Positions 1 through 42,100 of a DNA stretch of 64,000 nt are shown here, piece after piece; the stretch's first letter is position 1, and the number at the start of each line of letters is the position of its first letter. The translations under genes were made by a program, and so were the position numbers. The notes beneath the pieces were generated by a model, which was given only the letters and a program-made list of their open reading frames with translations, ran no database searches and was not told the DNA's origin. Source of the stretch: Protonemura montana (Eukaryota > Arthropoda > Insecta > Plecoptera > Nemouridae); contig OX387606.1 in the NCBI GenBank assembly GCA_947568835.1, positions 4,774,001-4,838,000 of the forward strand, in the 5' to 3' direction.

Positions 1-200
1 CGCTGTAAAAATCCATTATGAGTGGATTTATAATGAATACAGAGTATGCCTGATTGCGACATTGCCACAAAGAGATTAATAAACTAAATTACTGCTAGAC
101 GGGTGCAATATACAGTGGAGTACTAGATGTCTTCAGCCAGGTTTGCTGTACTGGGCCATGAAGCATGAGCATAAAACGACGGGCTTTACCGATATTGCAG

Positions 201-357
201 AGCGACTCCGGAGGACCACTGCTGTGGCCAGACCCAGCTTCGGGGCGCCTTTTCGTGGTCGGCGTCGTCAGCTACGGCGTCGGATGTGCCAGCGATGTCC
301 CCGGCGTAAATACTAGAGTCGACGTCTACCTCGACTGGATACAGCAAGTGACGCAAG
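201..357 (+). CDS. Trypsin-like serine protease, catalytic-Ser exon (partial gene A)
   Basis: This exon encodes the active-site serine region of an S1-family protease whose earlier exons lie left of the window. It starts after the acceptor ...gatattgcag and ends at the donor acgcaag|gtaact. It is 157 nt long, the same length and phase as the matching exon of the two complete paralogues at 7228 and 10258. The serine loop reads SDSGGP, followed by SYGVGC and PGVNTRV, which carry the 216 and 226 glycines of the S1 pocket. The usual first glycine of GDSGGP (chymotrypsin residue 193, part of the oxyanion hole) is replaced by Ser (AGC instead of GGC). A short terminal exon may follow at 853-874 (acceptor gtttcag, then stop), with AATAAA near 1110, but that is only a guess. 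The gene could be functional or a decaying copy. Confidence 0.8.
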
Positions 358-1682
358 GTAACTGTCAATGCTCGATACTCGGAGAAAACTCTCGGTATTT
401 CACAGAAAACTGGATCCCAGTACGAAACGATGTGCCTCACCCTATAACCGGGCGTAAACCTTGGTTACAAAAAAAAATGTTTTTTTTAATATGTGGAAAG
501 CCCATCTGAGTTATTCTCTTATGTTTCATTAACCATTGTGGGATATAGAACTATATTTCTATCGGTCAGTACGAAACATGTATCTTGTGAATGTTTTTCT
601 TTGAGTTGACATTACTTTTATACTAAGTTTTACGAGAACCTGTGTAATTTCCCTGGTAAACTACAGCAAACCTTCTTCCATGGCGTACAAATGCAAATTC
701 TTGAAGCAGAGAGTCCTGAATTCGGTATTAAAGAGAATAAACCAATTAATGCCATATTTAGAAACTATTCGTTACTCATCTTTATTCAGGATTGTTTTAT
801 GGGCTCGTTCGTAAATTGATCCTCGGGAGTCCATGCATTCACTTGCCCACTGTTGTTTCAGCTGATTTCTGCATCAAATAGGATGGACCACATGACGGAG
901 TGTAGCCTGCAATTGCCTACTCTTGTCGACAATAGTGGTTGGCATCCACATTATGGTGCGGGAAGACAACCGACTTGCTACTTCGATTCTAGCCCGACTT
1001 GCTGCGATAAACTGGCTTCTGACATTATTGTTTTACGCATGCAAAATATGAAATTTTATTTCCTTCGCCCTCTCAATTGCCTGTCCTGAAATCAGGTCAG
1101 TCGTTTGTCAATAAAAACCAACATAAAACACCAACGAAGATTTTCAGATATTTTTTTATTTTATTTCGTTGAAATATCTCTACCTCATGGACATACCCGT
1201 AAGGATGAAACCGGAAAACACATCATAAAATCAAACCATGGCTCTAAAAACATCCACTCAACCCATGGTACTCAACCATAGTGCATGCACCTACCCAGAT
1301 GAGGCAGACGTATACATATGAGTTGCGTCTAAAATACTGATTTACTTGAATTTATAATCGATTATGCCCCTTATCCATTGCCGACGCTATGTACACGGAG
1401 TCATACGATCCTCTCTGTCTCGCTTGAAAACACAGGTGCAGGATATACGATTTCCTTGGGGTTTGAACACCTTGCAGATTCCCCGATGAGCAAGAGATTA
1501 GTGTTTTATGGGTTTTTACAAATCTTATTTCTGTTCAAAGAAATTTAATTATACCGTTTGCAGGAATTCGATATTTTCACCACTTTTTTGACCTCATCAC
1601 TTGGCGTCCGAACCACTTATTCTCAGATTCACTTGTTTTGTGATTCACTTAGCTTCCTAATCACTTAGCCTTCACTTATCCT
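358..1682. other. Intergenic/3' flank of protease gene A
   Basis: AT-rich sequence between the last recognised exon of gene A and the receptor gene. It holds a possible short terminal exon near 855-874 and an AATAAA near 1110. I see no other supported gene. Confidence 0.5.
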
Positions 1683-2879
1683 TCACTTGGCCGTGTGCAG
1701 CACCACAATATAAGTGGCGACAGTCGCCGCGGCACTACCCAGCAACGAGGCGTCCAAGGTGCAGAAGCCATGCGCCGAGAACGCCATCTTGCAGGCAAGC
1801 AGCTGAACGGTAAAGTTCTGCAGCGCCTCCTGGATGTTTGGCTCCAGCCGCCTGGAGAGCGCGCAAGTTTGCACCAGCGACAGCGTGCGGTTAGACTCTG
1901 CGCTGGCACTGTGCGCGGACAGCGCAATGGCGAGCAAGGCCGCAATTTTCTGGACGCTCCAGAGTAAAATGGCCACGTAGCCGAAAATACCGACTCGGCT
2001 CATTTCAAAAACCAGAGATGACAGCACGTACATGCTGCAGATAAGCTCGATCAGAATTGACACTAGGGTGCCCAGTATTTTCAACCCAAACTCTTGGTTT
2101 ATCAAGTCGGCCACTTGCTGGCAAGTTCGGTGAGCCTTACGAAGAGAGTGAATTTCATCCACAACGGTTCTTTTAGAGTCTCTTCTACGTACCGTAAAAA
2201 CGATTACTTTCTTGTGTACCCAGCGTTCTTCAGAGTCAAACGTTACCTCTTCTGAGTGGCTCAAGTCAAAAACGTCGACAATGAAGCAGTTGATTTTTGC
2301 GGAACGCACTTTCAGGGCGAGCACCAAGTTGACAAACTGCATACAGTTCACGGTTTGCAAGACATAAGTGAAATGCATTACGAGCACAAACCTGAGTGAG
2401 AGATCCATTGCTTGGTATTGTATCACGTCAGCTGTTAATATGATTGACTGGGCAATAGCCGTTACCAGCATCGCCAGTGAGACCTTTGTTTGCAAATTTA
2501 CTCTTGCTTGTGTACAAAAACGGGGAATAAATTTGTCGAGTTTCTCTAGTTGACCGTAAATTCTACGCATCACTCTTCCTGCATGTGTCAGTGAAGTTGT
2601 CAGTAAAATGATTGTACTCGTTACGTTTGCTGCCATCGTCAGCACTAAAGACACGTACCATGTCTGCGTTATCCAAGGTGCACTTTTGGAAGAAAATTGG
2701 TAAGTGAAGGCAATTAAGAATGCAACGTACTGAGACACGGCCAACGTGAGAAGCAGCAAGGTGTAGAAGACCATCGCTCGCGAATGGCTGAAGTCGGTTT
2801 TGAAGGGTGCCAAGCCTAAAATCCTGCTGGCAAAGTCCAGTGGGCGGAGTGCTGCTGAGAAGTCGCGTTGGCTCCCCAT
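1683..2879 (-). CDS. Insect-type gustatory receptor, intronless, 398 aa
   Basis: This encodes a seven-transmembrane gustatory receptor (insect chemoreceptor superfamily), a ligand-gated cation channel of chemosensory neurons with intracellular N-terminus. The 398-residue length is typical. Hydrophobic segments lie near residues 36-59, 73-96, 132-153, 161-189, 265-292, 300-325 and 375-394. The conserved end of the last helix reads GSAAATVATYIVVL, close to the family TYhhhhhQF signature, but QF is replaced (HTAK, then stop). The long loop between TM4 and TM5 is basic and charged. There is no intron, whereas many Gr genes split near the C-terminus, so the copy may be intronless by descent or a retrocopy. 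The start ATG at 2879 is the first in frame with a normal-length N-terminus. The frame has no defects. The ligand cannot be inferred. Confidence 0.85.
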   Translation of the reverse strand: MGSQRDFSAALRPLDFASRILGLAPFKTDFSHSRAMVFYTLLLLTLAVSQYVAFLIAFTYQFSSKSAPWITQTWYVSLVLTMAANVTSTIILLTTSLTHAGRVMRRIYGQLEKLDKFIPRFCTQARVNLQTKVSLAMLVTAIAQSIILTADVIQYQAMDLSLRFVLVMHFTYVLQTVNCMQFVNLVLALKVRSAKINCFIVDVFDLSHSEEVTFDSEERWVHKKVIVFTVRRRDSKRTVVDEIHSLRKAHRTCQQVADLINQEFGLKILGTLVSILIELICSMYVLSSLVFEMSRVGIFGYVAILLWSVQKIAALLAIALSAHSASAESNRTLSLVQTCALSRRLEPNIQEALQNFTVQLLACKMAFSAHGFCTLDASLLGSAAATVATYIVVLHTAK

Positions 2880-4666
2880 GCCGCAAGGAAAAGTGAAGGG
2901 CGAATGAACTATACGACATTATAAGGTCAAAGTAATCCATAAGGCGAAAGTCCTCTGAATTGAGTTCTTTGTTTGCGCTGTAGTGCATTATCCCACAATA
3001 GTGTTTGTTTAGTAGCTAATAGCATAAAATAAATATAATTTTGATGGGTTTGCGTGACGACAAATTCAATTAAAACGTGAATTATATATCAAGTTGCTTT
3101 AATTTAATGAAATTTGTAAAATGAACTGGTAAATACACACAAGGTCATTTTAAATGTGAATATTGATTCCAAGTAGGTACATATTATAAGAAAAGCAACT
3201 TAAATGATTTCATTTTTTGTCAAGTCTCGATCCATTACAACAGAATAACGTGTAATGCACGTATACACGCGCCCCATTTTCATGAATATTTTAGAAACGC
3301 ATCAAACAAGTGAGACTGCATTTTACAATTAAACGCTGTGGTTTCGTAGAGGTGGACACCACAACATGTGCCATTATGTAAATTGTTTAAGCCATCTTGT
3401 TCTAAAATATATTTCCATTTTTCCCCTCACAGAATCAACTTTACAGACCTCACCTGACCTGACCTTTCCTCACAGACTTGCAACGACTTGACTTGCTCAG
3501 CTAGTTCGCAGCCAAGGACTGCGTCGCTGAACGTGCAAACGTCGCAAAACCGCGACGAAAAGCAGCGAGGTTGATGACAGTTTTACCTTCGCTAAAATGA
3601 AGAAGTGAGCTGAGCTGAGCCTGAACATGCAATGTAAAATACGCTTATGCCGAGAGAGCAGAATAACAGAGAACATTTTTAAAAGATAATTAATGCTAAA
3701 CATACATTTTATTTGGCAAAAGGAAATAATGGAAGCAGGGGAGATATTGACGGACTTTGGTTTAGTCTAGATAGGACCAAGGCTTCAAATTAGGTAGATG
3801 GCTGATATACCTGCAGCTTCAACTGTGATTGAATATTAACTCATTTTGGAAAATAGTATTGCAAAGGAATCAGAACATGAGCTCAAAAAATATTTGAGAT
3901 CGCAGCTACGCCTTGCGTCACACGCATGCTATTAGTTCGCTATAAATTGCAGCGCGTCGGTGGTGTAACCGCAATAACTATAATCTACATAAGTATCAAA
4001 TCAATCCGAAAAAAATCACGCAATCTTGCCTATTGCCATTTATTATTTTACGGTGATTGTTTTTTAGTATTAACTGGAACCGTTGAGTGTGTGATAACCT
4101 ACAAACTGCGCTGGCTAGAACACATAAAACATCGAGTTCAATTATTTACCTGCTGTAAAATGGTGTGATTGTTCCAATAAACTGGTTTTATCTGCGAGGA
4201 GCACCCTTTAAAAGCAAGCAAACTTGGTTGTTTCCAGATAGTACATTTTATTTGCTTTTGACTGTTGGATAGTCGGAAGAAATATACTCATTTAAATCTT
4301 GTGGAACGCGGGGTCGAGGTATTTTAAAAAATGCATTACATTCTTCTGTTTGTTGCAGGTTTGTTTTATTGACTTTTAACCCAAAATTATTTCTAGAGTT
4401 GCATATTACAGTCTTTCAAATTATAAAATCACATTTGCTCTTGACTAAATTATAACGTTTTTGTCTATTGCACTAAATCCTTGGAATAGTTTAACGTTTG
4501 TGTGCAACAAAGCCCCTGGGTTGGTAGACATGACACACATGTACGCAATGGTTCCAACTGTAGTTGCCCCTTCAATTATTTCATACAGTTTGGTCGGTTC
4601 CACTGGTAACCTTCCACACCCTTCGACAGAGGCTGCCCTCTCGACCTCGACCTTGACCTGTTTTAG
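2880..4666. other. 5' flank and unlocated first exon of protease gene B; outer part of left palindrome arm
   Basis: From about 3230 on this stretch is homologous, inverted, to about 13060-14930, but more diverged than the gene-proximal part. A TATA-like ctataaatt lies at 3940. The first coding exon of gene B (holding the initiator Met) should be here but I could not locate it. Confidence 0.5.
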
Positions 4667-7600
4667 TGTTATTGCTGGCTGTTGTCAGCATACCATGCGC
4701 TTCGTTACCTGCACAGAAATCTGTGGATGAGAGAGTCCTCCGGTTCACCAAAAACAACAAAATCCAGGTAACAAACCTTCAGCTACATCGGACACTTACG
4801 GTGGAAGCAGTTAGACTCTGATTGGACTGTTTAATCTGTTTCATGAGCATTTTAATTCGATAAAAGTCACTTCGCAAAAACGATTGATAGCTGTAAAATC
4901 GCTGGTATATGGGTTAATAACCTTGCAATACATTTCTAATATCCCTACGCACCACGTGGAGTAGCCGTACATCGTGAACGGCACCGAGACCGGGGTCAAC
5001 GAGTTCCCCATGATGGCAGGATTGGTCAACAAACTCTCCTACCAGCTCTTCTGCGGCGCCACCCTCGTGTCGGCTGAGTTCGTCGTCACTGCCGCCCACT
5101 GTCTGCTAAGATGGAAACCCAGCGAGGTGGCTGTGCTTGTCGGTGATCACGATATTTCCACGGGTAATAAGGCGAACTTATATACAGTGAAATTGGAAAG
5201 GTTCATACAGAAATGTACTGATTTGTGTTTATTTTTAAGGGCTAAAGAATCATTAGAATCATTCCATATGCTGTTCGAACGACAAAGATGGATTTAATTA
5301 CTACATACAAAATATAAGGTAGCACCATAAATGCAACAATAAAAATACCAAAGCTGTCAACTCAAATAAACGATAAAATTGCAGTAGTATCAAAATATCA
5401 TTCAAATCAACGATTTAATAGTTATATCATTGAATTCACATGTACCTAGTCATAAATCTGTGATAATAACAATTGTTAGAATAATGCTGGAGTGGTCAAA
5501 GCATCAGTGGACACAAAATAAATTAAATTAAATTAAATATACAATTTTTTGATTGATTTAAATGCATTGGGGGCATTTTACTGTAGGAATCCTCTTCACC
5601 GTGTTTTAATTAACGTGTATCTCTCTTGTTGACTAACTTTTACATCGGCAGGTATCGACACCGACGCTACTGACCTTATTCCATCAAACAAGATAATCGT
5701 TCATCCGCAGTACAACTTGCGAACGAATGTAGGTTATGTAACAAATTATTTCAGTTTGAAAGTATGTTTACATATTAAATTATACCTGATACCATAGAAA
5801 AAGAGTTAATTCAATGCCATACGTATAAACTCTACTTCAACTGTGGGTAAGGAAATTGGTAAAACTGGAAGTTGCCATATTCCAATTTATTTTGATTTGG
5901 TATTCCCAACGTCTCAGTACGTGGATTACAATAGAAACACCTCCGTTAATGTCATCCTTCAAAAACACGAGCTACTCAGTGTTTGTGGTGCATGTCATAG
6001 TACTTTGACGTGTTGCCTTAGGTAAACGACATTGGCTTAGTCCGGCTCTCCAGACCGGCAGTCTTCTCCTACAAGGTGCACCCCGCGTGTCTGCCCTTCT
6101 TCATCCGGGGCTGGGTGCTCTCCGGTATTGAGGTCGTTGTTCTAGGTACAGAATTATTTTCTATCATTGAGCCGTTGCCGTAATAAGCCGGGGTAAAGTG
6201 TCCGTCTTAATTCCAGTAACCAAAAATCAGATAAAAGGACACTCAGGTTGTCAAGGTATTTTTGCAAGATATTTTCCCACCCTTGCAATACATGTCTGTT
6301 GGAGCAATGGCAAATGTACTTCGGCCTGATTGAACTGAAACTTAGGCTCCTAGTTGATGAGGAAGTTCGAAAAAATGTTCATCGATATTTTTTACGACGT
6401 GTAGGAAAATTCAGATGTTTCTGTGAGTTTGCAACTCAATTTGTAGCTGTAGAATTTGATAAAATCAGTTCGACTAGTTTAACAATGTCCTTAAAAGACA
6501 TAACACTGCCAGTTAAAGAGTTGTGTCCATGGTGACAGATAATTAACATCCACATTTAGCTTAACCAGAAGATGTGGATCTGGAACTAATAGCCCGAGTT
6601 TCTGGTAACCGAAGCTAAAGATGCAAAAGAGATTCTTAACATACCCACGTTTCTTCTTCTAGGTTGGGGAGCTACCGAATTCGGTGGTCCAAGTGCCAAC
6701 CGACTTCAGAAGACGCTGCTGACGGTGCAGGATCACGCTAAGTGTCGCGACATCTTCTCTCACCAGCTCATTACCGACGAGCAGCTCTGCACTTCCGCCG
6801 ACGGCACTGACGCTTGCACGGTATACTCAGGGTCGGTTAAGCCCGGCATAGCCTAGGTCATCTTGCCCAGATCACATAAAACAAGCCACATGCATTTCTC
6901 TTACTTGACTTTATGCATACGTATTTATTTATATGTTAATTGTTACAAGGTCAACAACTGGACCCATGCACTAGTGTAAGTACCTCTAAAGGCAGGTTTT
7001 GTATCGAAAAAACTACCTTATTTGTGAGATGTTAGTGAGTGAAGAGTTTTCATTTAAGCTATACGTTTAGCAGTTCGCCCCGAGATGGAACGATATTTTA
7101 ATAGAAAGAAACGTCGTAACGAACTACCGTTTGCTGGAAACCTGATTCTAACTTAAAGATTTCCCGTATGAATGTTCTGTGCGCTGCACCAGAAAATAAT
7201 AATGACCGGTCACTTCCGCGGTTGCAGGGCGACTCCGGAGGACCGCTGCTATGGCTGGACCCCTACACGGGTAGACATATCTTGGTCGGCGTCATCAGCT
7301 ACGGCGTGGGGTGCGCTTGGGGCTGGCCCGGCGTCAACACCAGGGTTGACGCCTTCCTCGATTGGATGCAGAAGGAGACCCGAGGTAAGTCGGGTCGTCA
7401 CAAGATATTATCACCCTTGATGACTATGGGTTCTTGAGAAGAAGCTTGATCCGCACGTGACGGTAATTCTAAAAATGTCTGGGATTTCCCTGTTTAAGAT
7501 TTCTCCCGGTACGCATGGCGACATGATCAATGGGAAAGTAACAAAGAAATTTGTTCAATAAACAAACATTGCTTCTGTTAACATTATGCTGTTACCAGCA

Positions 7601-7976
7601 GCCGCACAGAGGTGGCCGCGTGGGCCTAACCTCATCCAAATGTAGCTCTTCAACTCGAGGTAAACCGTCCAAATTACGCTTGTTTCAGCCTCGTTCTGCA
7701 CTTAGACTACGCCGTCCGCCGATGACGACTACCACGTGAATCTATGACCGAGACCAGTCCAGCCAACGGACCACTACGACGAATCTCACCAATAAAATCC
7801 ACCTTATCGTCAATAAACCGACTGCAAGCAATTTTATTGTAGAAATTAACACTCACTCTTGTTTTTCACTTTCCCTTAATCTATTGTCCGGTTTCCTTAA
7901 GTATCAATCCTGGGTCCCACAGCAAAAGTTGGAACAGCGTAGGATATATAGGGACAAGAGTAGGGAGAAGAGCAAG
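3230..7976 (+). repeat. Left arm of a ~5 kb inverted duplication
   Basis: The reverse complement of this segment matches 9510 to about 14930. The inner ends are sharp: agcaag at 7971-7976 pairs with cttgct at 9510-9515. The innermost ~200 bp are virtually identical. The coding exons differ at a modest number of sites. The outer kilobase (for example 3370-3430 against 14710-14770) is visibly more diverged. Paired exon starts 7228 and 10258 give the same centre (8743) as the inner edges. Confidence 0.9.
4667..7645 (+). CDS. Secreted trypsin-like serine protease B (exons 2-8)
   Basis: S1-family endopeptidase. Exons: 4667-4767, 4965-5163, 5652-5728, 6022-6124, 6663-6820, 7228-7384 and 7599-7645. 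All joins are GT-AG and phase-consistent, and the stop is TAG at 7643. The first exon, which would supply the Met, was not found; the 4667 exon opens with two bases of a split codon and then the signal-peptide core LLLAVVSIPCASLPA. The protease domain begins at IVNGTE. The triad is His in TAAHC, Asp in NDIGLVRL and Ser in GDSGGP. Residue 189 (six before the Ser) is Asp in DACTGDS, with pocket glycines in SYGVGC and PGVNT, so cleavage after Arg/Lys is expected. The zymogen lacks the common Arg-IVGG junction (PYIVNG is read), so the activating protease is unclear. The terminal exon has a NAGNAG acceptor. Poly(A) signals lie near 7791. No CLIP domain is visible. Confidence 0.85.
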
Positions 7977-9509
7977 AAAAACAAATACTCAGGTGTATTG
8001 GTTTTTGGAGTTTTCAAGTGGGATTTACAAGTGTTCAAATTTCAATCCGTTTTGACTCGACCATCTAAGCTGAGTTGCCACCGTACAACACTATCATCAC
8101 CTTTTCACTTCAGTTAAATACCCGAAATATAATTGCAACCAATGAAATAAATTCCACAACGAAGCCCAAATCAATCAATTCTGATAGTGTACACATTTCA
8201 AAGGTAAATATTTTCCTCGATAAATTGCGTGAACAAAGAACCAATTTTAGAACTCGATGTACTACATGCACTTTTGGGAAACACTACACACTATATAATT
8301 ATTTATATCCAATGCAATAACATTGGAATCAAAGCTGCTGAAATACCAAACGGTTTGGCATATTGGAAACACTGGTTCAAATGAGACCACCGAAGTTAAG
8401 CAATATTTCACTGGGTCGGGTCTTGTATGGGTAACCATCATACACCTGACCAGTTCTGTTCGGGAGAGAGGTTGGAAGGATAAAAGCTAATACAGCAACT
8501 TCACTCGCCTTGCTTATCAACCGCTCGACACCATGGATTTGTGGTTCGCGTTTTACCGTGCTTCGGAAGGGACGTTAAGCCGGTGGTCCCCTTGGTGCTC
8601 TTCGACAGGAGTAGGCTAAGTGCCTGCATCGGATTTCCCCTCCTCCCATCTAGGCTAGATTAGGTTCATCATCATCCTCATCGTTATCCGCTCATTCACC
8701 AACGCCATTAGCCCAATGCCACATGGCCAGCTATCTAAACAGTGCGTCGTTAAACCCCAATAATCAACCAATCAAAGCAGCTCGTAGATTGAGTAAAGGC
8801 ATCGCAATCCCTCGGAAACATCCCTATTCACCTGGGGGTTGCGTTGAAACGCTGATATATGTTGGATGAGATGCATCCAGAGCGATAGCAAGACTCGCAT
8901 AATAGATAATAGGCAGTAAGTTAAAGAGGATTTCTCCAGGGATACCAAGGCGTCTTGCCGCTTTAGTATCGGTATCGCGGCAGCTGCGGCTGACCACAGC
9001 GCTCGGGAAACTGAGCGATTAGCCATGTTTAACGACGCATTGTTTTGTGTTTTAACAACAGAGCGAGCCCTGGCTCTATTAGGGTTAATTAAAGACACAC
9101 AGTCGACGATCAACCTTATCTTGACTAGAGTATAGAAGGGAGGAGGTAACACCATGTGGCAACATATACGAAGCGTACTGACGAAGACCAGCAAGGAGAC
9201 CTCTGTTAGGACCATATCAGAGTTGCTAGAAAGATGGAAGTATGGGAGGTGCTGCCCCCATGTTTTATGGTCTGTGGTGACCGTTGACAAAAACCACATG
9301 GGGGCGTCTTTCGCCTTCTTGTAGACTAGGTAAGGATTCCCTCGCAGATTAGTTGCAAGAAGACCATGCGTATATCAGACGATTTTGTAAAGATTATTTG
9401 TAAAGCTGATTAGCAGTCACTAAAGAAACTGATTTTATAAATTCGCCCTAAAGTGTGCAAGCAGTCGCTCGTTTATCGAAATAATGGAGTTGTGGGATCT
9501 TACCCAGCT
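7977..9509. other. Spacer between the palindrome arms
   Basis: 1,533 bp of non-duplicated sequence. It contains a 5S-derived SINE (8347-8762) and then about 750 bp with no recognisable gene. One reverse frame at 8772-9299 stays open for 175 codons but shows no domain, and I do not call it. Confidence 0.6.
8347..8762 (+). mobile_element. 5S rRNA-derived SINE, copy 1
   Basis: The first ~110 bp resemble 5S rRNA: aacggtttggcat at the 5' end, caccgaagttaagcaa (box A region) and gtatgggtaacc (internal control region C). A ~300 bp body follows, ending in acagtgcgtcgttaaac. Three more copies in this window share the same order of blocks, so this is an interspersed family transcribed by RNA polymerase III rather than a real 5S gene. 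It lies in the spacer of the protease palindrome. No clear target-site duplication was seen. Confidence 0.85.
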
Positions 9510-9840
9510 CTTGCTCTACTCCCTACTCTTGTCCCTATATATCCTACGCTGTTCCAACTTTTGCTGTGGGACCCAGGATTGATACTTAAGGAAACCGGAC
9601 AATAGATTAAGGGAAAGTGAAAAACAAGAGTGAGTGTTAATTTCTACAATAAAATTGCTTGCAGTCGGTTTATTGACGATAAGGTGGATTTTATTGGTGA
9701 GATTCGTCGTAGTGGTCCGTTGGCTGGACTGGTCTCGGTCATAGATTCACGTGGAAGTCGTCATCGGCAGACGGCGTAGTCTAAGTGCAGAACGAGGCTG
9801 AAACAAGCGTAATTTGGACGGTTTACCTCGAGTTGAGGAG

Positions 9841-12800
9841 CTACATTTGGATGAGGCTAGGCCCACGCGGCCACCTGTGTGCGGCTGCTGGTAACAGCAT
9901 AGTGTTAACAGAAGCAATGTTTGTTTATTGAACAAATTTCTTTGTTACTTTCCCATTGATCATGTCGCCATGCGTACCGGGAGAAATCTTAAACAGGGAA
10001 ATCCCAGAAATTGTTAAAATTACCGTCACGTGCGAGTCAAGCATCTTCTCAAGAATCCATAGTCATCAAGGATGATAATTTCTCATGACGACCCGACTTA
10101 CCTTGGGTCTCCTTCCGCAACCAATCGAGGAAGGCGTCGACCCTGGTGTTGACCCCGGGCCAGCCCCAAGCGCACCCCACGCCGTAGCTGACGACGCCGA
10201 CCAAAATGTGGCTGCCCGTGTCGGGGTCCAGCCATAGCAGCGGCCCTCCGGAATCGCCCTGTAACCGCGGAAGTGACCGGTAATTATTCTTTTCTCGTGC
10301 AGCGCACAGAACATTCATTGGGTAAATCGTTGAGTAAAGAGAATGTTCATTAGCGAACGGTATTACGTCCCGACGGCCACGTTGGGGCAAACTGCTGTAC
10401 GTGTTGCAAGTATAGAAACCTCGTAATCCCGTAATTTCCCACAAAATCAGGGTAATTATTTCGATGCATACATAACCTGTCACTAATGTTCCATTGGTTT
10501 AGTTTCAAAACTCCCGATAACACTTTCATATTATTTGCTGGTGTGGGAGGATTGGGGGGGGGGGGGGGGGGGAAGGCAGACGTTCTCTCGATGTACGCAT
10601 GTTGAAAAGGACGCTGGTTATGGAAGGGGTGCGGGTGAAAAGGTATTGCTTTTAATTATTTCAATTCTTTTTTTATCCAGCAATGTTCTGAGAAACCTTT
10701 AGAAGAGACATCGTTGACTGCGTAACCGTGTTTTGCCGTAGCTTAAGAAAAGGATCACGAACTATATTATCTACCAGTAAATATTTCCATAGAGGAGTTT
10801 TCTTTCTTTGGTTCCGATTAATTTCGGTGCTTGTTTTGCCTTCTTCTGAGCTTAAGAGTTTTACAGCTATGCGATTGATCTACCAATATAAATTTTTTAT
10901 CGAAGATTAGGTACGTAGAAGAAGATTTTGTCAGAGCGTCATTAGGCCCTGTGCATACCTCGCATGGACCAGTTCCGTCAGAGTACGTGCAGAGCTGCTC
11001 GTCGGTAATGAACATGTCAGAGAGGATGTCGCGACACTTAGCGTGATCCTGCACCGTCAGCAGGGTCTTCTGAAGTCGGTTGGCACCCGGACCATCGACT
11101 TCGGTAGCTCCCCATCCTAGAGAAAGAAACATGGGTATGTTAAGAATCCCTTTTGCATCTTTCGCTTCGGTTACCAGAAACTCGGGCCATCAGTTCCAGA
11201 TCCACATCTTCTAGTTAAGCTAAATGGGAATGTCTGATTATCTGTCACCATGGACACAACACTTCAAGTGGCCTTTTTTAATTTTTAATTTTTAAGACCG
11301 ACCGAACTGAGTTTACTAAATTCTGGAGATATGAATTGTGATGAATACTCGCAGAAACATCTGCATTTTTGCGCACGTAGTTGATAATTACGATACTATT
11401 TTTTCGCCTTCCACATCAACTAGGAGCCTATTTTTCAGTTAAGTGGATGCATGGATGCATAATGAGTCTGGATGCATGCACAATTGCTCCAAAATCCAAA
11501 AGACATGCAGGGTGGGAAAGGTATCTTGCAAAAATGCCTTGACAACCTGTGCCCTTTTATCTGATCTTTGGTTACTGGAATTAAGACGGACACTTTACTC
11601 CGACTTATTACGGCAACGGCTCAATGATAGGAAATAATTCTGTACCTAGAACAACGACCTCAATACCGGAGAGCACCCAGCCCCGGATGAAGAAGGGCAG
11701 ACACGCGGGGTGCACCTTGTAGGAGAAGACTGCCGGCCTGGAGAGCCGGACTAAGCCAATGTCGTTTACCTAAAGCAACACGTCAAAGTACTATGACATG
11801 CACCACAAGCACTGGGTAGCTCGTGCTTTCGAAGGATGACATTAGAGGAGGTGTTTCTATTGTAATCCACGCATTGAGACGTTGTGAATACCGAATCAAA
11901 ATAAATTTGAATTTCTACTCTTTCTACCAGTATTAAACCATCGATAAAGGACCTCAATGCTCCTTTATCAATGATACAACTTCCTTTACCCAAAGTGTAA
12001 GTAGAGTTTATTGTTATGGTATTGCATTAACCTTTGTTTTATGATATTTGGTATGTTCAAATAAGGCAACATATTTTTAAATTGATGTAATATGTTACAT
12101 AACATACCTTTGCTTTCGAGTTGTACTGCGGATGAACGACTATCTTGCTAGATGGGATAAGTTCAGTTGCGTCGGAGTCAATATCTGCCGATGTAAAAGT
12201 GAGGCAACAAAAGAGATGCACGCTAATTAAAACATGGTGAAGAGGATTGAAATTTTGTTGTGACCACTTACCTATACCTGACTACAAGATAATGTTTCGG
12301 CATAATTATCGTTGATATTTTGTTTTATAAATCAAGATACATTTAATTGTTAAAATGGAGTGACAGCTTCGTTTCTTTTGGCATTTATGGAGCCACCTTA
12401 CCTTTTATTGGTAATAAAATCTACCTTGGTAGTTTCAACTATCTAGGGAATGATAATTTAAATTTGTAAATCGAATAAAAATCAGTGGATTTATGTTTGA
12501 ACCTGCTAAATGTCTCTGACTACGGGTGGTTTGAGCCTAGTTATGAGTTCGCCGCATTACCCGTGGAAATATCGTGGGCTCCAACGAGCACAGCCACCTC
12601 GTTCGGTTTCCATCTTAGCAGACAGTGGGCGGCAGTGACGACGAACTCAGCCGACACGAGGGTGGCACCGCAGAAGAGCCGGTAGGAGAGTTTGTTGACC
12701 AATCCCGCAATCATGGGGAACTCGTTGACCCCGGTCTCGGTGCCGTTCACGATGTACGGCTACTCCACGTGGTGCGTAGGGATGCGAGGAAAGTGTTGTA

Positions 12801-13057
12801 AGGTTATTAACCCATATACCAGCGATTTTACAGCTATCAATCGTTTTTGCGAAGTGCCTTTTATCGAATTACAATGCTCATGAAACAGATTAAACAGTCC
12901 AATCAGAGTCTAACTGCTTCCACCGTAAGTGTCCGATGTAGCTGAAGAGTTATTACCTGGATTTTGTTGTTTTTGGTGAACCGAAGGACACTCTCATCCA
13001 CAGATTTCTGTGCAGGTAACGAAGCGCATGGTATGCTGACAACAGCCAGCAATAACA
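9841..13057 (-). CDS. Secreted chymotrypsin-fold serine protease C, altered S1 pocket (exons 2-8)
   Basis: Inverted paralogue of protease B. Exons in coding order: 12957-13057, 12561-12759, 12108-12184, 11667-11769, 10959-11116, 10102-10258 and 9841-9887. Exon lengths (101, 199, 77, 103, 158, 157, 47) equal those of gene B. The triad is intact: TAAHC, NDIGL and GDSGGP. The decisive difference is residue 189: the segment before the catalytic loop reads TGPCE|GDSGG, so Gly replaces the Asp that gives trypsin its Arg/Lys preference, and 190 and 192 also differ (Pro, Glu). A chymotrypsin- or elastase-like preference is therefore expected, not trypsin-like. As in B, the first exon with the initiator Met was not located and should lie between 13058 and about 14930. 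Genes B and C converge tail to tail. Confidence 0.85.
10554..10572 (+). repeat. Poly(G) tract, 19 nt
   Basis: Uninterrupted G19 in an intron of protease C, absent from the matching place in the other palindrome arm. One of seven poly(C)/poly(G) tracts of 14 nt or more in the window. Confidence 0.95.
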
Positions 13058-15492
13058 CTAAAACAGGTCAAGGTCGAGGTCGAGAGGGCAGCCTCTGTCG
13101 AAGGGTGTGGAAGGTTACCAGTGGAACCGACCAAACTGTATGAAATAATTAAAAGGGGCAACTACAGTTGGTACCATTGCGTACATGTGTGTCATGTCTA
13201 CCAACCCAGGGGCTTTGTTGCACACAAAGGTTAAACTATTCCAAGGATTTAGTGCAATAGACAAAAACGTTATAATTTAGTCAAGAGCAAATGTGATTTT
13301 TTAATTTGAAAGACTGTAATACGCAACTCTAGAAATAATTTTGGGTTAAAAGTCAATAAAACAAACCTGCAACAAACAGAAGAATGTCATGCATTTTTGA
13401 AAACACCTCGACCTCGTTCCTCAAAATTTAAATATGTATACTTCTTCCGACTATCCAGCAGGCAAGAGCAAACAAAATGTACTATCTGGAAACAACCAAG
13501 TTTGCTTGCTTTTAAATGGAGCTTCTTACAGATAAAATACCGTTTATTTGAGCAATCATACCATTTTACAGCTGTTAAATAATTGACCCCAATGGTTTAT
13601 GTGTTCCAGCGTTGAGTTTATAGGTCATTTATATGTTTCGGATATTATTACACACTCAACGGTTCCTGGTATTACGCAAAAACAATAACCGTAAATTATA
13701 AGTAGCATTAAGAAAGATAAAGTGATTTTTTTTCAAGTTGATTTGATACTATTATAGATTATAGTTTTATTATCGTCACGCGTGAAGTGATAGCCAATAG
13801 TGATGACTAATAGCAGGCGCAGGTGCTATCTCACATTTGACACTTCTTAAATGACGTTATACATTTAATTCGGGTTAGGTTTTTTAAGTTTGTTAAGGTT
13901 AGGTTAAGTTAGTCGGGGGATAGCGCTGAGAATGGACATTCAAATTTTTAATTTTCTTTGAGCTCATAATGAAAACGTATTTCAGGCTCAACGTGGATGG
14001 GTTTATGTCCACAACTCTTTGCCCTTTTATAAAATGAGTTTCAAGATCCATCGTTTACGGAAATATTAGAGCACGGTTCACCTAATCAGTAGACGTGATC
14101 ATATTTGGACGAAACTAAATGCTGCCATTTACTTTTTAGCCGCCAGTATTTCAATTTCATAAAGATTTTGTGACTCCCTCGGCCCAAGCACATTTGACAT
14201 TCTAAGTTCCGGCTCAGTTCACCTCGCTTCTTAATATTAGCTACCGCTGCGAAGTGTAGGGAATGTTCTGCAAACTGAAATCAGCCTCGTTGATTTTGAC
14301 AAAAACTATTTGAACTAGACTTTGTATGCTAAGTGGGGAACAACTAAATTTCCCAACGCTTCGTAACTTTTACCTGTTACTTTATCAAGGGTTAAAGCAG
14401 TCCTGATAATTTTCCGATAAAAAAGAACCACAAAAAAAATGTCACACTAACCTAAACCACACCAGTTCAAATAGTTTTTGTAAAAACTAGTGCTAAGATT
14501 AGACAAAGTAGACATGAGTCTAAAAACTATCATAACCTCGCTGCTTTTCGTTGAGGTTTTGCGACGTGGCCGTTGGCTGAACTTGGACCGTGCACGTTCA
14601 GCGGTGTTCAACTTGGCTGCGATCAAGCTAGTCAAGTCGTTGCAAGTCTGTGAGGAAAGGTGAGGTCAGGTGAGGTCTGTGGAGTCGAGTCTGTGAGAGG
14701 AATAAAGGAAATGCATTTAAGCAATTTACGTAGTGGCACATGATGTGGCTTCCACATACACGAAATCACAGCGAGTGCTTGTAAGGTCTAGACTCGCTTG
14801 TTTGAGAATGTTCTAAAATGTACTTTAACATGACAATAGGGGCGCGTGAGCCCTGTCCTCCTCAGTGAATACACCTATATCAAACGGCAATGGAACTAGT
14901 ACTTTATTCCGTTGTGAAGGATTGACAATTGACAGTAAAATTAAAGTAGTAAAGCTGCACTTTTGACATGGGCACCCAAATGTCGTCTTATAACGGCAAT
15001 GCATTAGACTAATCTAAAATTGTAAGTACTTGTATGAAAAGTGTAGAAACAATTAAACTCTGCAAAGACAAGCAAAGACCTGCTAAATACGTCTTTTGGA
15101 AGATTTTGACTAGTAGTTTCTAGCCTGATGTTAAACTGGGTCCATGGGTTGTAAAAATTTCTTCTTTGCAGTTCTAGGTTCATTTTGACTTTGTGGTCTG
15201 AAAAATTGTCGATTCGGAAAACAGTGAACAAGAATGAACAAACGTGGTACGGTGTGATGGGAAATGTAAAAAAAAACTACAGTTATAACTTTTTATTAAA
15301 AAAGTATAAGTGTTTTCACCTCAATGACGACCAATCAAGACTACTGGTATCTTTCCTGTCGTTCAGAAATTTAGAAGGAAGTACGGCGAAATAAAATAAA
15401 TTATTGAGAAACTTTAAGTGGCGTATCAAACTACAAAAGAAGACAGCTGTAACTTCGGCCTCCTTTAGAGCAAATACCAAATTAAACCCGAC
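13058..15492. other. 5' flank of protease C and intergenic DNA
   Basis: The outer part of the right palindrome arm runs to about 14930, then AT-rich intergenic sequence follows to the peritrophin gene. It should contain the unlocated first exon of gene C. It also holds an inverted pair of a dispersed motif (14298-14480). No other gene was recognised. Confidence 0.5.
14298..14480. repeat. Short inverted-repeat element, possible MITE remnant
   Basis: The motif gacaaaaactatttgaact at 14298-14316 recurs inverted at 14464-14480. A second copy of the left end with about 80 bp of similar flank lies at 43069-43145. This suggests a small non-autonomous inverted-repeat element, but I could not define its ends or target duplication. 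Confidence 0.4.
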
Positions 15493-17393
15493 TTAAGGCA
15501 TTTGCGGCACGACGAATAAGCCACCGTGAACGGATATGTCGTCGTTCGAGTCTCGGACAGGATCACACGAGACGGAAGTCTCGTTGAAAGCACCACCGTG
15601 CTTGCAGACAAAAAGCACTGGATAGAGATTGCCCTCGCGACGTTTGCAGATGTAGTAGATGCTCGTGTTTTCTGGAAGAGCACCGACCGCGCCCACCTCG
15701 GTGCACTCCGGCACAGGGCCTTGAACGCACGTCGGGTGGTCCAGCGGCAGGTTGCAGAACCCACGAGATGAGTTGTACGCGTACCTGTCAAAGTTGTCAT
15801 GATGTTATGATCCAACGCATCGCATCGCCGCGCACTTGCCACACTGTCTTCAAAAGCAGATCACAAAAGGTTCTGTTCCCACTCCTAACAGAAACTATTT
15901 GACAGAACTTCGACGCTCAAATAGTTTCCTGGCTTTAAAACTAGCCCACGCCTGCACAGAATATGTTTTCGCTTCGTTCACTTAGTTTCCTACTCACATG
16001 GGTAGAATAAACGAGATCAAGGGTAGAATATTTGTGGTATCATGGGTAGAATTATTTTGCCAATGATAAAATATGAACCCATGCACGGGTTATTGAGATA
16101 GAAATGGAAATATCAAAGGTGAACTCACCCTTCTTCGCAATACGACAAGTGTCTGGAAAACTTGTCGGGTTCGGTGCCTGGTGCGCAGACGTAGAACGTT
16201 GTACAGTCGATGGGGTTTGGGAACTGTCCTACGTTCGTGCATTCGAACGGATACGCTATCAGACCATCGCAAGAATTTCGTGTCTCGCAGCGACGCGCCG
16301 CCGCGTAGCAGTGCGTGTCAACAGCACACGTTTCCACCTGTAGGGCCCAGGGGTCAAAATTGTAGTCAAAATCTTTAATTTTCTCTAATTAATTAGTCTC
16401 ATGTCAAATCTCTTACATTCACTCACGAACATTCTTTTATAGTAATTGGTAATATTTTACCTGCTATATCATACGGATACCTTCTTATGGGCACTTACTA
16501 ATTGAGTGAGCTGACATAATAAAAAAATAACGTTTAATATCTTGGGCTTTTTGTGTCCACAGAAGTAAGTGTACTAACAACTAGGACCCAGGACTCATCT
16601 CCCATGGTCACAGCCAATCTGTTTGTTTAATCGTCTTAACTCTAGATGCAAGACTGTTCCGAAATCAGGTTATTTCTCACCGATTCTGTCTTGAACCCGC
16701 CCGCGCCGTCGCCCAGGCAGACGACCAGATTGCCGCAGGTTTCATCACAGGTGAGAGTTCCTGGCCCCGTGCACTCAAATGCCGACTGGCAGTTCTGCAA
16801 GCAACGGGTGGACCAAACAATGGTGCATAAGTATAATGCGCTGGGTGAAAGCCGTCAGAAAATTGGCAGACTGGCTTGTGACACGAAGATTCATTTCCAG
16901 GCGATTATGAATACTACCTTTATATGTTTTGTATTAACAGTTTATTTCTGCAAATTCTTCTTTATGCGAACTAGATCGATTTAATGTTAATAACATTTTT
17001 TTTGTATGTCAATTGCTTGTCAAGTAGCGCGTGTTTTCTCTTTTCATTTATCTACCCGCTATATGACTGCTACCGCTGTTTTTAGAAATGAATTATTTCC
17101 TTGTATCTTTGTAACTGCAAAATAATGTTGGTTTATCAGGCCGATCGTAATTAAAGAGCTCTTAAATCGCTACAAAAATATCTGTCTACCCCCGAAGTGG
17201 TGGGCAAATTTCTCCCATACGGGCGCCCATGATCAAAAACAAAACAGGTACAATCATCATTGGCGATTGATCGATGATTGTAATTATGTTTTCAGTTGGA
17301 ATATTTGATAAATAATTTAAATAGCACACAAAATAACATTGTACTTACAACCACCGCCAAACATAGAACGACGAGAATGGTCAAGCTCTGCAT
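15493..17393 (-). CDS. Secreted peritrophin-like chitin-binding protein, 219 aa
   Basis: Four exons join in frame: 17349-17393, 16681-16794, 16129-16337 and 15493-15784 (660 nt including stop). Exon 1 encodes the signal peptide MQSLTILVVLCLAVV. The mature chain is rich in cysteine, with repeats of the Peritrophin-A (CBM14) type. The clearest has an aromatic core, NPIDCTTFYVCAPGTE, followed by YCEEGYAYNSSRGFC. The next contains TSIYYICKRREG and FVCKHGGAFNETSVSC. The first block (CQSAFECTGPGTLTC) is a more degenerate repeat. Such proteins bind chitin in cuticle or peritrophic matrix through conserved disulfides and aromatic residues. Residues after the last Cys are acidic then hydrophobic, ending GGLFVVPQMP. 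I cannot assign gut or cuticle from sequence alone. The model is complete with consensus splice sites. Confidence 0.85.
15891..15928. repeat. Perfect 12-bp inverted repeat (hairpin) in peritrophin intron
   Basis: gaaactatttga at 15891-15902 and tcaaatagtttc at 15917-15928 are exact reverse complements with a 14-nt loop. The core AAACTATTTGA matches the ends of the short inverted-repeat family at 14298 and 43069. Confidence 0.7.
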
Positions 17394-36100: not shown

Positions 36101-39100
36101 CAGATTACTTAAAAGTCACAAGTTACAGTACTGTACTTTCTTCTGAGCTGAACTCTGCAGTGTCAAAATTAATAGAAACATCCAGAGAATAGGAAACATA
36201 ACTAATATCTGTACCCACCTGAACTGCACTATGAAGGGGTACAGGAAGGGCATGCTAGCCGTCCAAAGCTGTCCCAGCGAATTTGTGTTGAGACATTCGT
36301 GCAGCGCGACCACCTGCGCAATGTGTGCGTCTGACACAACGCGGTACGATGTGTTGCTTAGTGATCGCGTGGCGCGAGACAGGGTCATGGACCGTGGGAA
36401 TCCTCGCAGCTGCAGCGGAGTAGGGATCGAAAGTGCAGCACCGCCCTGAAAAGAGTTTTATGAAACAACAACTGGACATATTTTCTTTTCATTTTATTCT
36501 ATTTTAATCTTGTGGTTTTAACAGGGCTGAATTGGATTGACAGTTTGGCTTTGGTATAAAGAATTTCTAAATAGGCCAGATTACCAAAATAGAGATTTTT
36601 TCGTTTGACGATTAATGCAGATCCTTCAGCCACTCTAAAAAATGTAAATGCCCCATCAAGGATGTTGTATGACTGCCTTGGAGTAAACTGGCTATGAAAT
36701 TATTGGACTGACATCCTGAGAGCTTTGTTTGACGAGACTGACCTGTGATAGGTGTACGAAGTAGGTCCACTCGTTGCCGGACTCCCAGACGACGAGTCGA
36801 GCCCACAGAGCCAAATTGGTGGCTGCAAGGTGCATGAAGCCGAATCGTGCTGCCAGCCCGAACCGCTCCACCAACACCTGTGCAAGACCAGGGCTTGGAG
36901 AAAAGTTCACTACCGAGTTGCCTTCATATCAATATGATTGCATAAAAAGTTCATAAATCTCATAACACTCATAAATACCGGTTCTGGTGAGATTAGCAAA
37001 GTTCATGAAAACTGCACTGGGTCAGGTATTAGATGGGTAGCCATCAAACACATGATCAGTTTAGCTTGGAAAAGAGGTTGGACTTCACTCGCCTTGCTTA
37101 CGGATTTGTGGAAGAATCCTGATTGGGTTATACTGACCTTCGGAAGGGACCTTGAGCCTATGGTCTCGTTGGTCTCGTTGGATTACAGCTAAGTGCTGAC
37201 AACAGGTTTTCCCTCCTCACTTCTAGTTAGGGTCACGTTCATCATTATCCTCATCATCGCATACTCCTTCCCTGACGCCATTAGGCTCTTGTCACATGAC
37301 CAGTTTTCAAAACAGTGTGTCGTTAAACCATGGCAACCGCTATCCAGGTTATTTGAGATCAGTGCGTTAAACCCACCAAGGAAGGTGGTTAAGCTTTGGT
37401 TGAGCTATATACCTGTGAGTTGACGAAGAGGAAGTGCATCTGCAGAAAGGTGAAGAGTCCGTGGAGCACCGGATGCACGAAGATGACGTCGTTGAGGCAG
37501 GACCCCTCCATCATCGAGTGCATTGCCACCTCCAGCCCATTGAACACCAGCGTGCCCAGCCCAAACGCTGCAACCACAATACAAATTCCAAACATAATTA
37601 GCCTTAGACACTTTGAATTTACCAATCAGCATGCATCAGCAAAAAGTATTCGAAAATATTTTCACCAAATAAGGTTTTGGCAATCTACTTTCTGACCTTA
37701 TTCCCTCAGCTTGAAAAACGACATGTTATAACTTTTTTGATTTTCACTTCTGTATTTGAATCGAACTTTGTTATCTCACGTTTGAATATTTTGGGATGTT
37801 TTTTAATTTTCATGCGCCCAGCCCTGCGTCTAGCTCATCAGTCAAGGTGGACCAAACGGATTGATATGTTGAAATGGAGACGTCGGGAAAGCCAGCGATC
37901 ATAATGTACTATTTCTCTGTAGAGAGCAAGCTGACCTAGAGCGCCAATACGGAGGTAGAAGCTGGTCCCGGCGCTCTTGCCCCTGCCAAGGTGCGCACGC
38001 TTGAGCGATCCAAACCGAGAGAGCGACATCTCAGCCATCTCGGCGTCGGCGTCGGCGCCGCCGACCACAGCCGTCGTCACGTTGGCAGGCGTTGGGCGTC
38101 GCGACGCAGTCAATGAGGCGCAGCTGTCCACCAAAACCCAGCCGTAAATGCAGATGATGACTGCGATGCTACCCACGTACAGGTACATGAGGAAGATGCC
38201 CTGAGGAAAGACGAAGAGCGATGTAACGTTTGAGATTGATAGCAAGGACAATTCAAGGTCAAATATTATCGTTTATTAAGGAGCAGATTACATGCACCAG
38301 AAGAGCTCTCAGTTAATTTTGGCCCCAAGGTTAGGTACAACCAAAACTACGTCCCTCATCAGTGAGATGCGATGGTATCTCCCATTCTGTCAATGCAGAC
38401 ATTGGAACATTGACTGGATCCTAAAGCTCACCACTAAGGTAGATTAAAATTTGAAATTAATATGATCTCAATGTAAAAGTATCACACAAATGACACAAAA
38501 TGACGCAGGAAAAATGCATTTCCAGTAAAAACTCGTGACGATAAATCAATCAGCATTTCCCAGGGTTTACAAGAATACATACGCCAGGATCTGGTGGAAC
38601 TAAACGGTGCTCTGGAAAGTGTCTGGAGAGTGATGGTTGGCATAGCATCTTTAGTAAACTTGTAGCAGTAAGCTGTCAGCGAGATTGATACCAGGGCTTT
38701 GGCCAGAGTGCCTATTCTCGAAACTTTACCAAGGTTTGTAAATCGGATTTTAACGTCGCGGTCACATTTCGAGAATAAGTACCCGGCAGGTCCAGGAAAG
38801 GCTTGATAGGTACGTCGATGACCTTATAGTGTGTATTTGGCTCAGTGTGACCCCTCAGCATTAAGTTCAGGCAGTAATAGCCTAGGAACCGAACAAGGAG
38901 ACAGGATCAATGTGCAGTTGTGTCTTCGTATGGCTCTGTCATTGTTCCACTAGGCTGTATTTTTTCACATCTTTTTCCAACACAATTCTACCGAAGAAAA
39001 GAAGCGTTAGATAAGGAAAAAATTGCCATCGTGAACCGAATGCCAGCTTGTAGACAGATCCAGAATGGTGAAAAAGAAAACGGTTTTCCATTCGATTAGC

Positions 39101-42100
39101 AAAAAAAATAACAAGCTCTCTTAAAGACGGCGTAAGCAGGCGCGGACGCCAGCTTGCATACAGCCAAACACGCGTGCGTGAAGTCTTATTCTCGCTGCTC
39201 ATGTGCGTCGTACAACGGCGCTCTTGTGCTGTGTCATCGACGTGTGATTAACGGCGCCACCGGTGGCCAGATGGCGCTGCGATTCGTGACTCGCCAAAAC
39301 TCACGGGACCCGGGGAAAACTCTCACATCGGATCCACAAACTCTCTTTTTTCCTCCGTGAAACGTCAGCTATGCGACAGCTGGTTGGCTATAAATTGCAC
39401 ATTTCTTTTTGAAATTATTTACAAGTGCTATATTCCAATCAGGGTCAATCGGTGGAAGATAGCCTCCTCTACTTCCATGTACTCGAGGATTATATAACTC
39501 TTCTGGCAGTCACACGTATTGGTCGTTCCATGGAAATTTCCCTGCACACATCACAAAATGGGTGGAGGGTTGTGATCAGGGTCAGACTGGTCGGTTGACC
39601 GCTTGAACAGTGGGGTTTAACGTCGCTCTGTTTGGAAAATGGGCCCTGCGGCACTGGTCTAATGAGGGTAATGGAAGAGTGTATGATGGTGATGAGGATG
39701 GGATGGTGTTGGGAGAAGGAGAAACCCGGTGCTGACACGTAACCTACACTTGTCGAAGTTGGAAGGGGACCACCAGATTAATGTCTTTGCCGAATGACGA
39801 TAACGCGAACAACAGGATTCCTCCACGAATCCTGTCAAGGCGAATGAAATTGCTGTTGTACTAACTTCTATCCCTATAGTTTCAAACCTCTCTCCCGAAC
39901 AGAACTGATCTTGTATATTATGGTCACCCATCCAATAGCTGACCCAACGCAGTGTTGCTTAACTTCTGTGATCTCACAAGAACCAGAGTTTAGAACACGC
40001 CAAACCGTTCGGTGGTCGGACTGGCACTAAAGGACCCGCGGCGTGAAGAAATGTTGACTAAGAATGTCTTCGGAAATGATGTGAAAATGACTCGCGATGA
40101 GTATAGGTACGTACTTTCCGTTTTTGGAGCTTTTTGGCATCGCCACAAAATGTGGGCCACTATTCCTCCAAAAGGGTGGAGAATGTCGAAAGAGTATACC
40201 TGGAGCGAGAGCATCTTGACGGCGTTGTCCATGACCTCGGTGAGGCAGAAGGCGACCATCAGCACCACGATCAGCTGGCCGTATAGCGAGCTGAGCGACA
40301 CCCACAACTGGGAGCTGCAACAGACAGACCGTCTCATCACGATTATTACTGTCATACACGAATCTTCGATCAGTTAGCACTAGTTTTAGAAGTTTTGGAA
40401 AATGAATATTTACAATTCAGAATTCACATTGAATCTTGCCTATGCTTTGCCGATTAGACCCACGGGGAAAGCTACACTTTTACTTTAAAGTTTTGTATAA
40501 TAACATTAGATATACAACATATTTTTAAGTCCTTGCCACCAAAATTTAAAATTAAAATACTTGCAATGCATCATTAAATATGTGATGAAATCACTCGCAT
40601 GGGTTTCAAAGCTTTAAGGGAAAAAGCTAAATGGCAAAGAAGCGCCAATGTAACTTTTGGACCCTGTGTCCGTCCGTGAAAATAATTTTGTTCATCGTCC
40701 AATGTTATCGCACCCCCCCCCCCCCCCCCCTCTCCTCTGACGCACGCAAGAGCCAAGAAACCCAATGTTTGCTTTCTCCCCCGCGCGTTCACGCGCGTCG
40801 CGATGGACGTTGGCGTCGATGACCGGCGTCGTCCGACCGCGACGCTTTCGCTCTCGATCTGGACGCTTGCTGGACCTCACCAGTCCAGTGGATAGGATCC
40901 TCAATCCGCATTTCCACACTTGCATTTCTTACTGACTTGCGGCAATCACGGAAAGACGAATTGCAACGCGACAACCCAATCCACGAACTGGTTCACTTGC
41001 CATCCGTCGTGCGTACTCATACTGCTTTGCGTATCAAGTTGGGATGGACTTCTTCCCAAATGATGTAATTTCAGCTAACAGTCAAATGCTTTTGACGCCA
41101 AAGGGGCTGGGCTCCAGGTCATATAAAAGGCTTATAAATATGTGACCTGTTGTAGTTCAAAGAGGTTACGACGGTGATTTTCGGTGCAAACGTTTTAACT
41201 TGTAAGTGCGGCATGGTAGTTTTAGTTGAATCCTCAAAATCCCCCTTCCACAAAAAAATAACACACCACCACAGCACTGTAAGGTTGTGTTGTGGTTGTC
41301 TTTGAGTCTTGCAGTTTCTAACCAAGGATTATACCGTTCAAGCTTCCAAGGTCACCAGTTGTCCCCATAAAGCCACCCATAAAATGTTCATAGCAGAGCA
41401 GATTGATGCTTCAGATGGTTTGGTCCATTGCCTTCGACCATTTCCACATATTTTCTTCCCTTCACTTACCACGACGAGACGATCAGATCAGTGAATTTCT
41501 TTGCCCTATGGTTAATAAAACCCACAAGATGACGACCTTTCTGCTTCGATTTCGTCCAACTTGGTTGTATCTGATTAAGAGGTTTGGCCAGAGGCCCATC
41601 GCACTCACAAGGGCTCGGGCGCGTCTAGCCCGACGTGGTCTCGGTGCGAGAACGTAGAGGCGGCCATCATGAGCGTCTTGCGCATGTGTGCGGCACCGCG
41701 TTCTTCGGAGTCCTGCGCCGACGCAGACGAGCGCGAGTCGTGGGCGCGTGCGCGGGCGTGCGCCGACTCGTTCAGGCTATCCGCATCGTGCGCCTGCTGC
41801 TCATTGTACACTGCAAACAAAACATGGGCTAGTGTCGTGGAACTCCTTCGGGTGGCGGGTCAAGGCTCAGGGGAAGTGTTAAAACGAACGTTTACAACCC
41901 TCTTCTAAACAAATCCTACGGTCTACTGTTATTTTTTATGACTATTTTAATCCTTGATTCCAGAAAAATGTTGATGATAGTGCACCTATCATATTTGAAT
42001 CTATGTGATGACAATTCTGTAAAAAAAATTGTGTCAGCGGTATTTTGTTAGAACCCTTTTCCCTCTCTATGTCTGTTGAAAATTTTATTTGCGTATCTTT

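Follow-up and report, generated by a model that had tools for sequence, protein, structure and literature searches.

Inverted trypsin-family protease genes of Protonemura montana form a mosaic of near-identical and diverged segments, probably patched by gene conversion

We analysed a window of 64,000 nucleotides from Protonemura montana (assembly GCA_947568835.1, contig OX387606.1, positions 4,774,001 to 4,838,000), in which two serine protease genes, P2 on the forward and P3 on the reverse strand, lie tail to tail, one in each arm of an inverted duplication (Table 1). The arms were linked by four collinear inverted matches in a BLASTN self-comparison of the window. The inverted protease pair around a 1.5 kb spacer, as noted in a preliminary description of the sequence, is thus real, and P2 and P3 are linked paralogues on opposite strands.

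Table 1. Positions of the genes, arms and identity blocks in the window; percentages are identities between the two arms unless stated otherwise
Feature	Position	Strand	Partner in P3 arm	Observation
P1, exon of a third paralogue	195-361	+		73-75% identical to exon 7 of P2/P3; most of the gene beyond the window
P2 protease gene, exons 2-8	4667-4767, 4965-5163, 5652-5728, 6022-6145, 6663-6820, 7228-7384, 7689-7705 (stop)	+		splice borders, open frame
P3 protease gene, exons 2-8	13057-12957, 12759-12561, 12184-12108, 11769-11646, 11116-10959, 10258-10102, 9797-9781 (stop)	-		splice borders, open frame
Left arm of inverted duplication	3266-7976	+		BLASTN and alignment
Right arm of inverted duplication	9509-14848	-		BLASTN and alignment
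Spacer separating the arms	7977-9508			1.5 kb, with 5S-derived SINE-like repeat
Arm match 1, innermost	7112-7977	inverted	10375-9509	BLASTN 93.7%, E 0
Arm match 2	5588-6832	inverted	12248-10947	BLASTN 80.7%, E 0
Arm match 3	3976-5182	inverted	13766-12542	BLASTN 90.5%, E 0
Arm match 4, outermost	3266-3584	inverted	14848-14523	BLASTN 70.7%, E 2e-47
Outermost block	3266-3584			82% over aligned columns; 71% in BLAST counting gaps
Next block	3590-3975			50% in MAFFT, alignment there unreliable
Next block	3976-4208			noncoding 78%
Patch with exon 2	4323-4923	+	13402-12801	HMM near-identical patch, 97.7%; noncoding 97.6%; upstream of exon 2, exon 2, most of intron 2
Upstream of exon 2	4323-4666			98.0% over 344 noncoding columns
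Intron 2				noncoding 94%
Mostly exon 3	4943-5129			high identity resumes
Rest of intron 3	5164-5588	+		diverged block, 65% over aligned columns
Intron 3 end	5589-5651			noncoding 90%
Intron 4				noncoding 74% at start, 92% at end
Patch around exon 5	5909-6271	+	11882-11522	HMM near-identical patch, 95.6%; noncoding 93.7%
Intron 5 start				noncoding 95%
Intron 5 middle	6272-6522	+		diverged block, 67%
Intron 5 end				noncoding 92%
Last 28 bp of exon 6	6793-6820	+		11/28 bases differ; codes residues up to 192
Intron 6	6821-7171			noncoding 59%
Patch at 3′ end	7172-7976			HMM patch, 95.7% overall; contains near-identical inner part 7501-7976
Start of 3′ patch	7172-7227			noncoding 93%
Middle of 3′ patch	7385-7500			noncoding 90.5%
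Inner part of 3′ patch	7501-7976	+	~9985-9510	noncoding 98.5%, 7 differences/459 columns; intron 7 end, exon 8, 3′ UTR, sequence past last AATAAA (7812)

Each gene was modelled with seven exons, of equal length between partners and 833 nt when joined; the splice borders are AG acceptors and GT donors, and no stop interrupts the frame from exon 2 onward. The modelled exons were numbered 2-8, and "intron 1" denotes whatever precedes exon 2, presumed to be an intron; in the model an intron interrupts the opening codon of exon 2, and the 5′ end and activation site of both genes are provisional. The two genes had been described as complete, which holds for the frames open from exon 2 and for the catalytic triad, but exon 1 and the start codon are not established. 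P2 matched the Pfam Trypsin family (PF00089) with E 1e-49, both proteins matched solved trypsin-family PDB chains, and both carry His57, Asp102 and Ser195. P2 and P3 are accordingly classed, as a sequence-based prediction, as ordinary trypsin-family (S1A) peptidases, sharing the trypsin domain, the triad and GDSGGP with that chymotrypsin/trypsin family (best PDB match, crayfish trypsin 2f91); they differ from it in the Gly that replaces Asp at residue 189 of P3 and in the residue preceding IVNG, for which the gene model gives Tyr instead of Arg/Lys. They presumably resemble insect "venom serine protease 34"-type proteins, and their mature forms differ from each other at 31 of 241 positions. 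Of the pattern matches to possible relatives, 40 in prokaryote and 16 in viral contigs, none was confirmed by tblastn. With P1 as outgroup, the 13 differences between P2 and P3 in exon 7 fell 7 on P3 and 5 on P2, with 1 unresolved; given these balanced changes and the open frames, neither gene shows any sign suggestive of pseudogene decay. The P1 exon itself, at a putative splice site, begins with Ser at the position of Gly193 in P2 and P3 (SDSGGP versus GDSGGP), and Ser for Gly193 is unusual for an oxyanion hole.

We then profiled the identity along the arms in 100-bp windows; four MAFFT modes and the BLAST columns gave concordant results, and block identities agreed within ~0.03 across the MAFFT modes. 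The arm identity is a mosaic, far from uniform drift. The innermost ~200 bp, reported earlier as practically identical, are indeed so, within ~475 bp at 98.5% that include a mismatch-free run of 236 bp (7732-7967), and beyond the last AATAAA at 7812 only 1 of 140 positions (7837-7976, 99.3%) differs. The identical centre gave no sign of structured RNA: 9510-9740 folds no better than its shuffles (z -0.66; 53/200 at least as good). The outermost kilobase had likewise been rightly called clearly diverged (3266-3584 in Table 1); part of the unreliably aligned block next to it is homologous to another place in the P3 arm, as seen from a 68-bp match at 3591-3658 (78%). The remaining long mismatch-free runs were of 160 (4574-4733), 106 (7478-7583) and 105 bp (6055-6159), and all four exceeded the maximum of 67 over 1000 shuffles (all aligned columns, gaps skipped). 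Blocks of intermediate identity, about 90-93%, lie at 5589-5651, 6523-6754 and 7172-7500; they may owe their likeness to older conversion or to constraint close to exons. The coding exons are slightly diverged on average, as had been stated, but this hides a range in exons 2 to 7 from 1/124 bases in exon 5 to 15/77 in exon 4, the most diverged whole exon, followed by exon 6 with 22/158.

A single duplication followed by uniform drift, already doubted in the preliminary description, was rejected by over-dispersion, by the mismatch-free runs and by an HMM. The dispersion of noncoding windows was 7.4 (p 2e-30, 30 windows of 100) or 4.5 (p 8e-29, 61 windows of 50), in fixed windows over 3092 noncoding columns of four of the five BLAST matches, the omitted one being the 68 bp at 3591-3658. 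Three HMM states were preferred over two and one (BIC 3900, 3929 and 4580, respectively), and a chi-square over 15 blocks gave p 1.6e-48, which is descriptive only, since the block borders are partly HMM-derived. Patchy silent near-identity beyond uniform drift was thereby found on noncoding columns; the uniform identity that the preliminary description had named as the outcome contrary to its reading is ruled out by the windowed alignment. We infer, from two sequences only, one of each copy, that an old inverted duplication was later patched by several separate gene-conversion events, and give this reading a probability of roughly 0.78. An S1A gene in a local cluster would have been duplicated long ago, inverted and tail to tail, and the copies would then have drifted, to a silent divergence of ~0.2-0.5 in the most diverged alignable blocks. 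Separate interlocus conversion events would have overwritten patches of ~360-800 bp at exons 2-3, at exon 5 and at the 3′ end common to both genes, where silent divergence is now ~0.01-0.08, while the diverged end of exon 6 would have escaped owing to the largely non-homologous intron, selection, or both.

The strongest alternative, though an unlikely one, dispenses with conversion: purifying selection would hold the exons, splice flanks, 3′ UTR and regulatory elements, while intron interiors decay and gain insertions. The patches do centre on exons, and the troughs are mostly intron interiors with indels. Furthermore, dS for exons 2 to 7 was 0.04, 0.16, 0.43, 0.06, 0.22 and 0.21, and the synonymous counts alone showed no significant heterogeneity among exons (p 0.095). 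However, the 344 noncoding columns that precede exon 2 and the 140 past the last AATAAA exceed, as point estimates, the synonymous likeness of exons 4, 6 and 7. In comparisons chosen after the profile had been seen, the synonymous sites of exon 4 had diverged further than noncoding 4323-4964 (p 4e-4), and those of exon 7 further than noncoding 7501-7976 (7/39 versus 7/459, p 2e-5). Noncoding patches thus surpass synonymous sites in likeness, which rules out protein constraint as the cause; regulatory constraint acting on ~340 bp before exon 2 and on 140 bp past the last AATAAA could produce this, but is less likely. Silent change per exon also followed the divergence of the 100 bp on each side by rank (Spearman 0.89, p 0.019, n=6; Pearson 0.65, p 0.16). 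Exon 3, whose 5′ side lies inside a patch and yet has a dS of 0.16, counts against the conversion reading, and exon 4 (dS 0.43) is a second diverged, apparently unconverted segment in addition to the end of exon 6.

Of the two processes proposed in the preliminary description, gene conversion is thus retained as the best explanation, but it is very improbable that the palindrome was shaped solely by conversion that spread from its centre or solely by stepwise growth. The innermost block is the most alike, the outermost kilobase is among the least alike, and identity correlated negatively with distance from the centre over the whole arm, at Spearman -0.28 for all MAFFT columns (p 0.064, 45 windows), -0.28 for noncoding MAFFT columns (p 0.097, 36 windows), and -0.19 (p 0.32, 30 windows of 100) or -0.24 (p 0.067, 61 windows of 50) for BLAST-aligned noncoding columns. 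The claimed centre-out gradient therefore has the expected sign but is weak and falls short of significance at 0.05, and it vanishes within 4200-7976 (0.03, p 0.87, 36 windows). Indeed, the BLASTN blocks run 93.7, 80.7, 90.5 and 70.7% from the centre outward, and the profile rises and falls repeatedly. The patches 4323-4923 and 5909-6271 lie farther out than the diverged blocks 6272-6522 and 6821-7171, and the former also lies farther out than 5164-5588, so that a patch of ~98% is found 3.05-3.65 kb from the inner end, outside blocks of 59-67%. Centre-out spread and stepwise growth are unsupported as sole processes because under either of them identity should fall monotonically or in steps, yet the profile alternates; each may still have had a part in forming the innermost patch. 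Also unlikely is an assembly or polishing artefact, by which haplotypes were joined head to head or short-read polishing homogenised the paralogues: unlike alleles, the arms differ in their insertions, have an intron 6 that is largely non-homologous, and contain blocks of 65-82% and homologous blocks differing by up to 35%, both frames are open, and polishing would be unlikely to create long patches from sequence 20-30% apart.

We also examined the diverged end of exon 6. Differences in this exon numbered 11/130 before and 11/28 after base 6792 (change point p 0.002 in 5000 permutations, the exon having been chosen after inspection), and these last 28 bp are the densest 28-bp window of the 833-nt CDS, the highest count outside exon 6 being 7. 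By counting back from Ser195 and by 2f91 alignments, P2 has Asp189, Ala190 and Thr192, and P3 has Gly189, Pro190 and Glu192; at residue 172, located by counting from Cys168, P2 has Phe and P3 has Leu, and Gly216 and Gly226 are common to both. These numbers come from counting, in what we take to be the usual convention. Residues 190 and 192 take part in specificity. Four of six specificity sites differ (p 0.003, the set having been picked afterwards), as against one of three in the standard triplet 189/216/226 (p 0.34). P2 carries Asp189, Gly216 and Gly226, the combination for cleavage after Arg/Lys, and P3 departs from it at 189, so P2 should be tryptic and P3 should not. Residues 189, 216 and 226 are given as key S1 residues in the sections of PMC8537139 drawn on here, where prediction from them is said to fail at times in distant relatives, and a portion of PMC2723916 discusses loops L1-L3 and positions 172 and 189. 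Positive selection was considered from dN/dS and set aside, the ratio in the second half of exon 6 being below 1 (dN 0.206, dS 0.378); what the data show at the exon 6 end is a segment that has diverged, apparently without conversion, and that carries functional sites; they do not show positive selection.

The diverged end of exon 6 directly adjoins intron 6, which is largely non-homologous: for its bulk (6821-7111), the P3 partner is unmatched until ~7112/10375 with stricter BLAST settings, and permissive BLAST reaches ~6993. Intron 6 itself may stop conversion tracts. The position of the difference cluster suggests, without proving it, that an altered substrate specificity was shielded from conversion. 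The earlier proposal that selection maintains part of the coding difference is hence plausible, as residues 172, 189, 190 and 192 differ, but unproven, with dN/dS below 1 in that half-exon. A possible, though rather doubtful, extension is that conversion homogenises most of both proteases while the largely non-homologous intron 6 and selection protect ~66 bases (6755-6820). If this is true, the protected block would hold residue 172, loop L1 and residues 189, 190 and 192, with a trypsin-type pocket in one copy and no charge at 189 in the other, and intron 6, acting as a barrier, would have allowed a new specificity to emerge within a homogenising pair. Such a pair would make a compact natural test of how duplicates gain different functions under ongoing conversion between copies. 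The specificity stretch is pinned to the residue, which makes the functional prediction (P2 cuts after Arg/Lys, P3 does not) directly testable, as is the conversion prediction of shared variants in the patches and fixed differences at the exon 6 end. As a separate matter, conversion from P1 into intron 6 of P3 was considered and not borne out: within the first 700 bp of the window, where P1 is cut by the window edge, the P3 match comprised 180-361 (the exon with adjoining bases) plus 27 bp (E 0.42).

The locus would join two known ideas, conversion within palindromes and selection against conversion, in one protease pair. In the excerpts of PMC3924832 used here, the palindromic Hsp70Aa/Ab and Hsp70Ba/Bb pairs of Drosophila are linked inverted paralogues with ectopic gene conversion; as far as those excerpts describe them, they are like P2 and P3 in arrangement and conversion and differ in gene family, conversion being read here from sequence alone. 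The same excerpts present Amy-p/Amy-d of Drosophila as inverted enzyme genes with homogenisation confined to coding sequence; these too are partly homogenised while other sequence evolves apart, but in P2/P3 intron and 3′ flank patches are alike as well, and some exons are not homogenised. Under the Innan model, as outlined in part of PMC3966226, selection prevents conversion at functional exons, with exon 7 of human RHCE/RHD as the example. On that partial account, P2/P3 may resemble RHCE/RHD in that differences cluster within one exon, which contains functional sites, while conversion acts around it; here there is one sequence per gene, so that fixed differences are inseparable from shared polymorphisms. 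A narrow literature search for inverted duplication, gene conversion, serine protease and insect together found nothing, and we make no claim of absence.

Between P1 and P2, a 411 aa open frame at 1683-2918 (-) matched a 7tm chemosensory receptor (PF08395, E 4.5e-26). On the other side of the protease pair, a chitin-binding peritrophin-A domain lies at 15493-15804 (-). In the spacer, an open frame of 200 aa (8772-9374, -) had no Pfam match up to E 0.1. The 5S-derived SINE-like repeat occurs in four copies of ~360-430 bp, at 8344-8775, 36973-37329, 39595-40013 (-) and 55207-55633; for the copy in the spacer, 8327/8770 may be a 9-bp target duplication, and the repeat head at 39893-40013 (-) passes the Rfam 5S threshold (41.7 versus 38 bits). 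Finally, the P3 insert upstream of exon 2 (14266-14520), which has no P2 counterpart in the alignment, contains 23-bp inverted repeats and looks like a small MITE-type element, and related sequence was found at 43032-43140.
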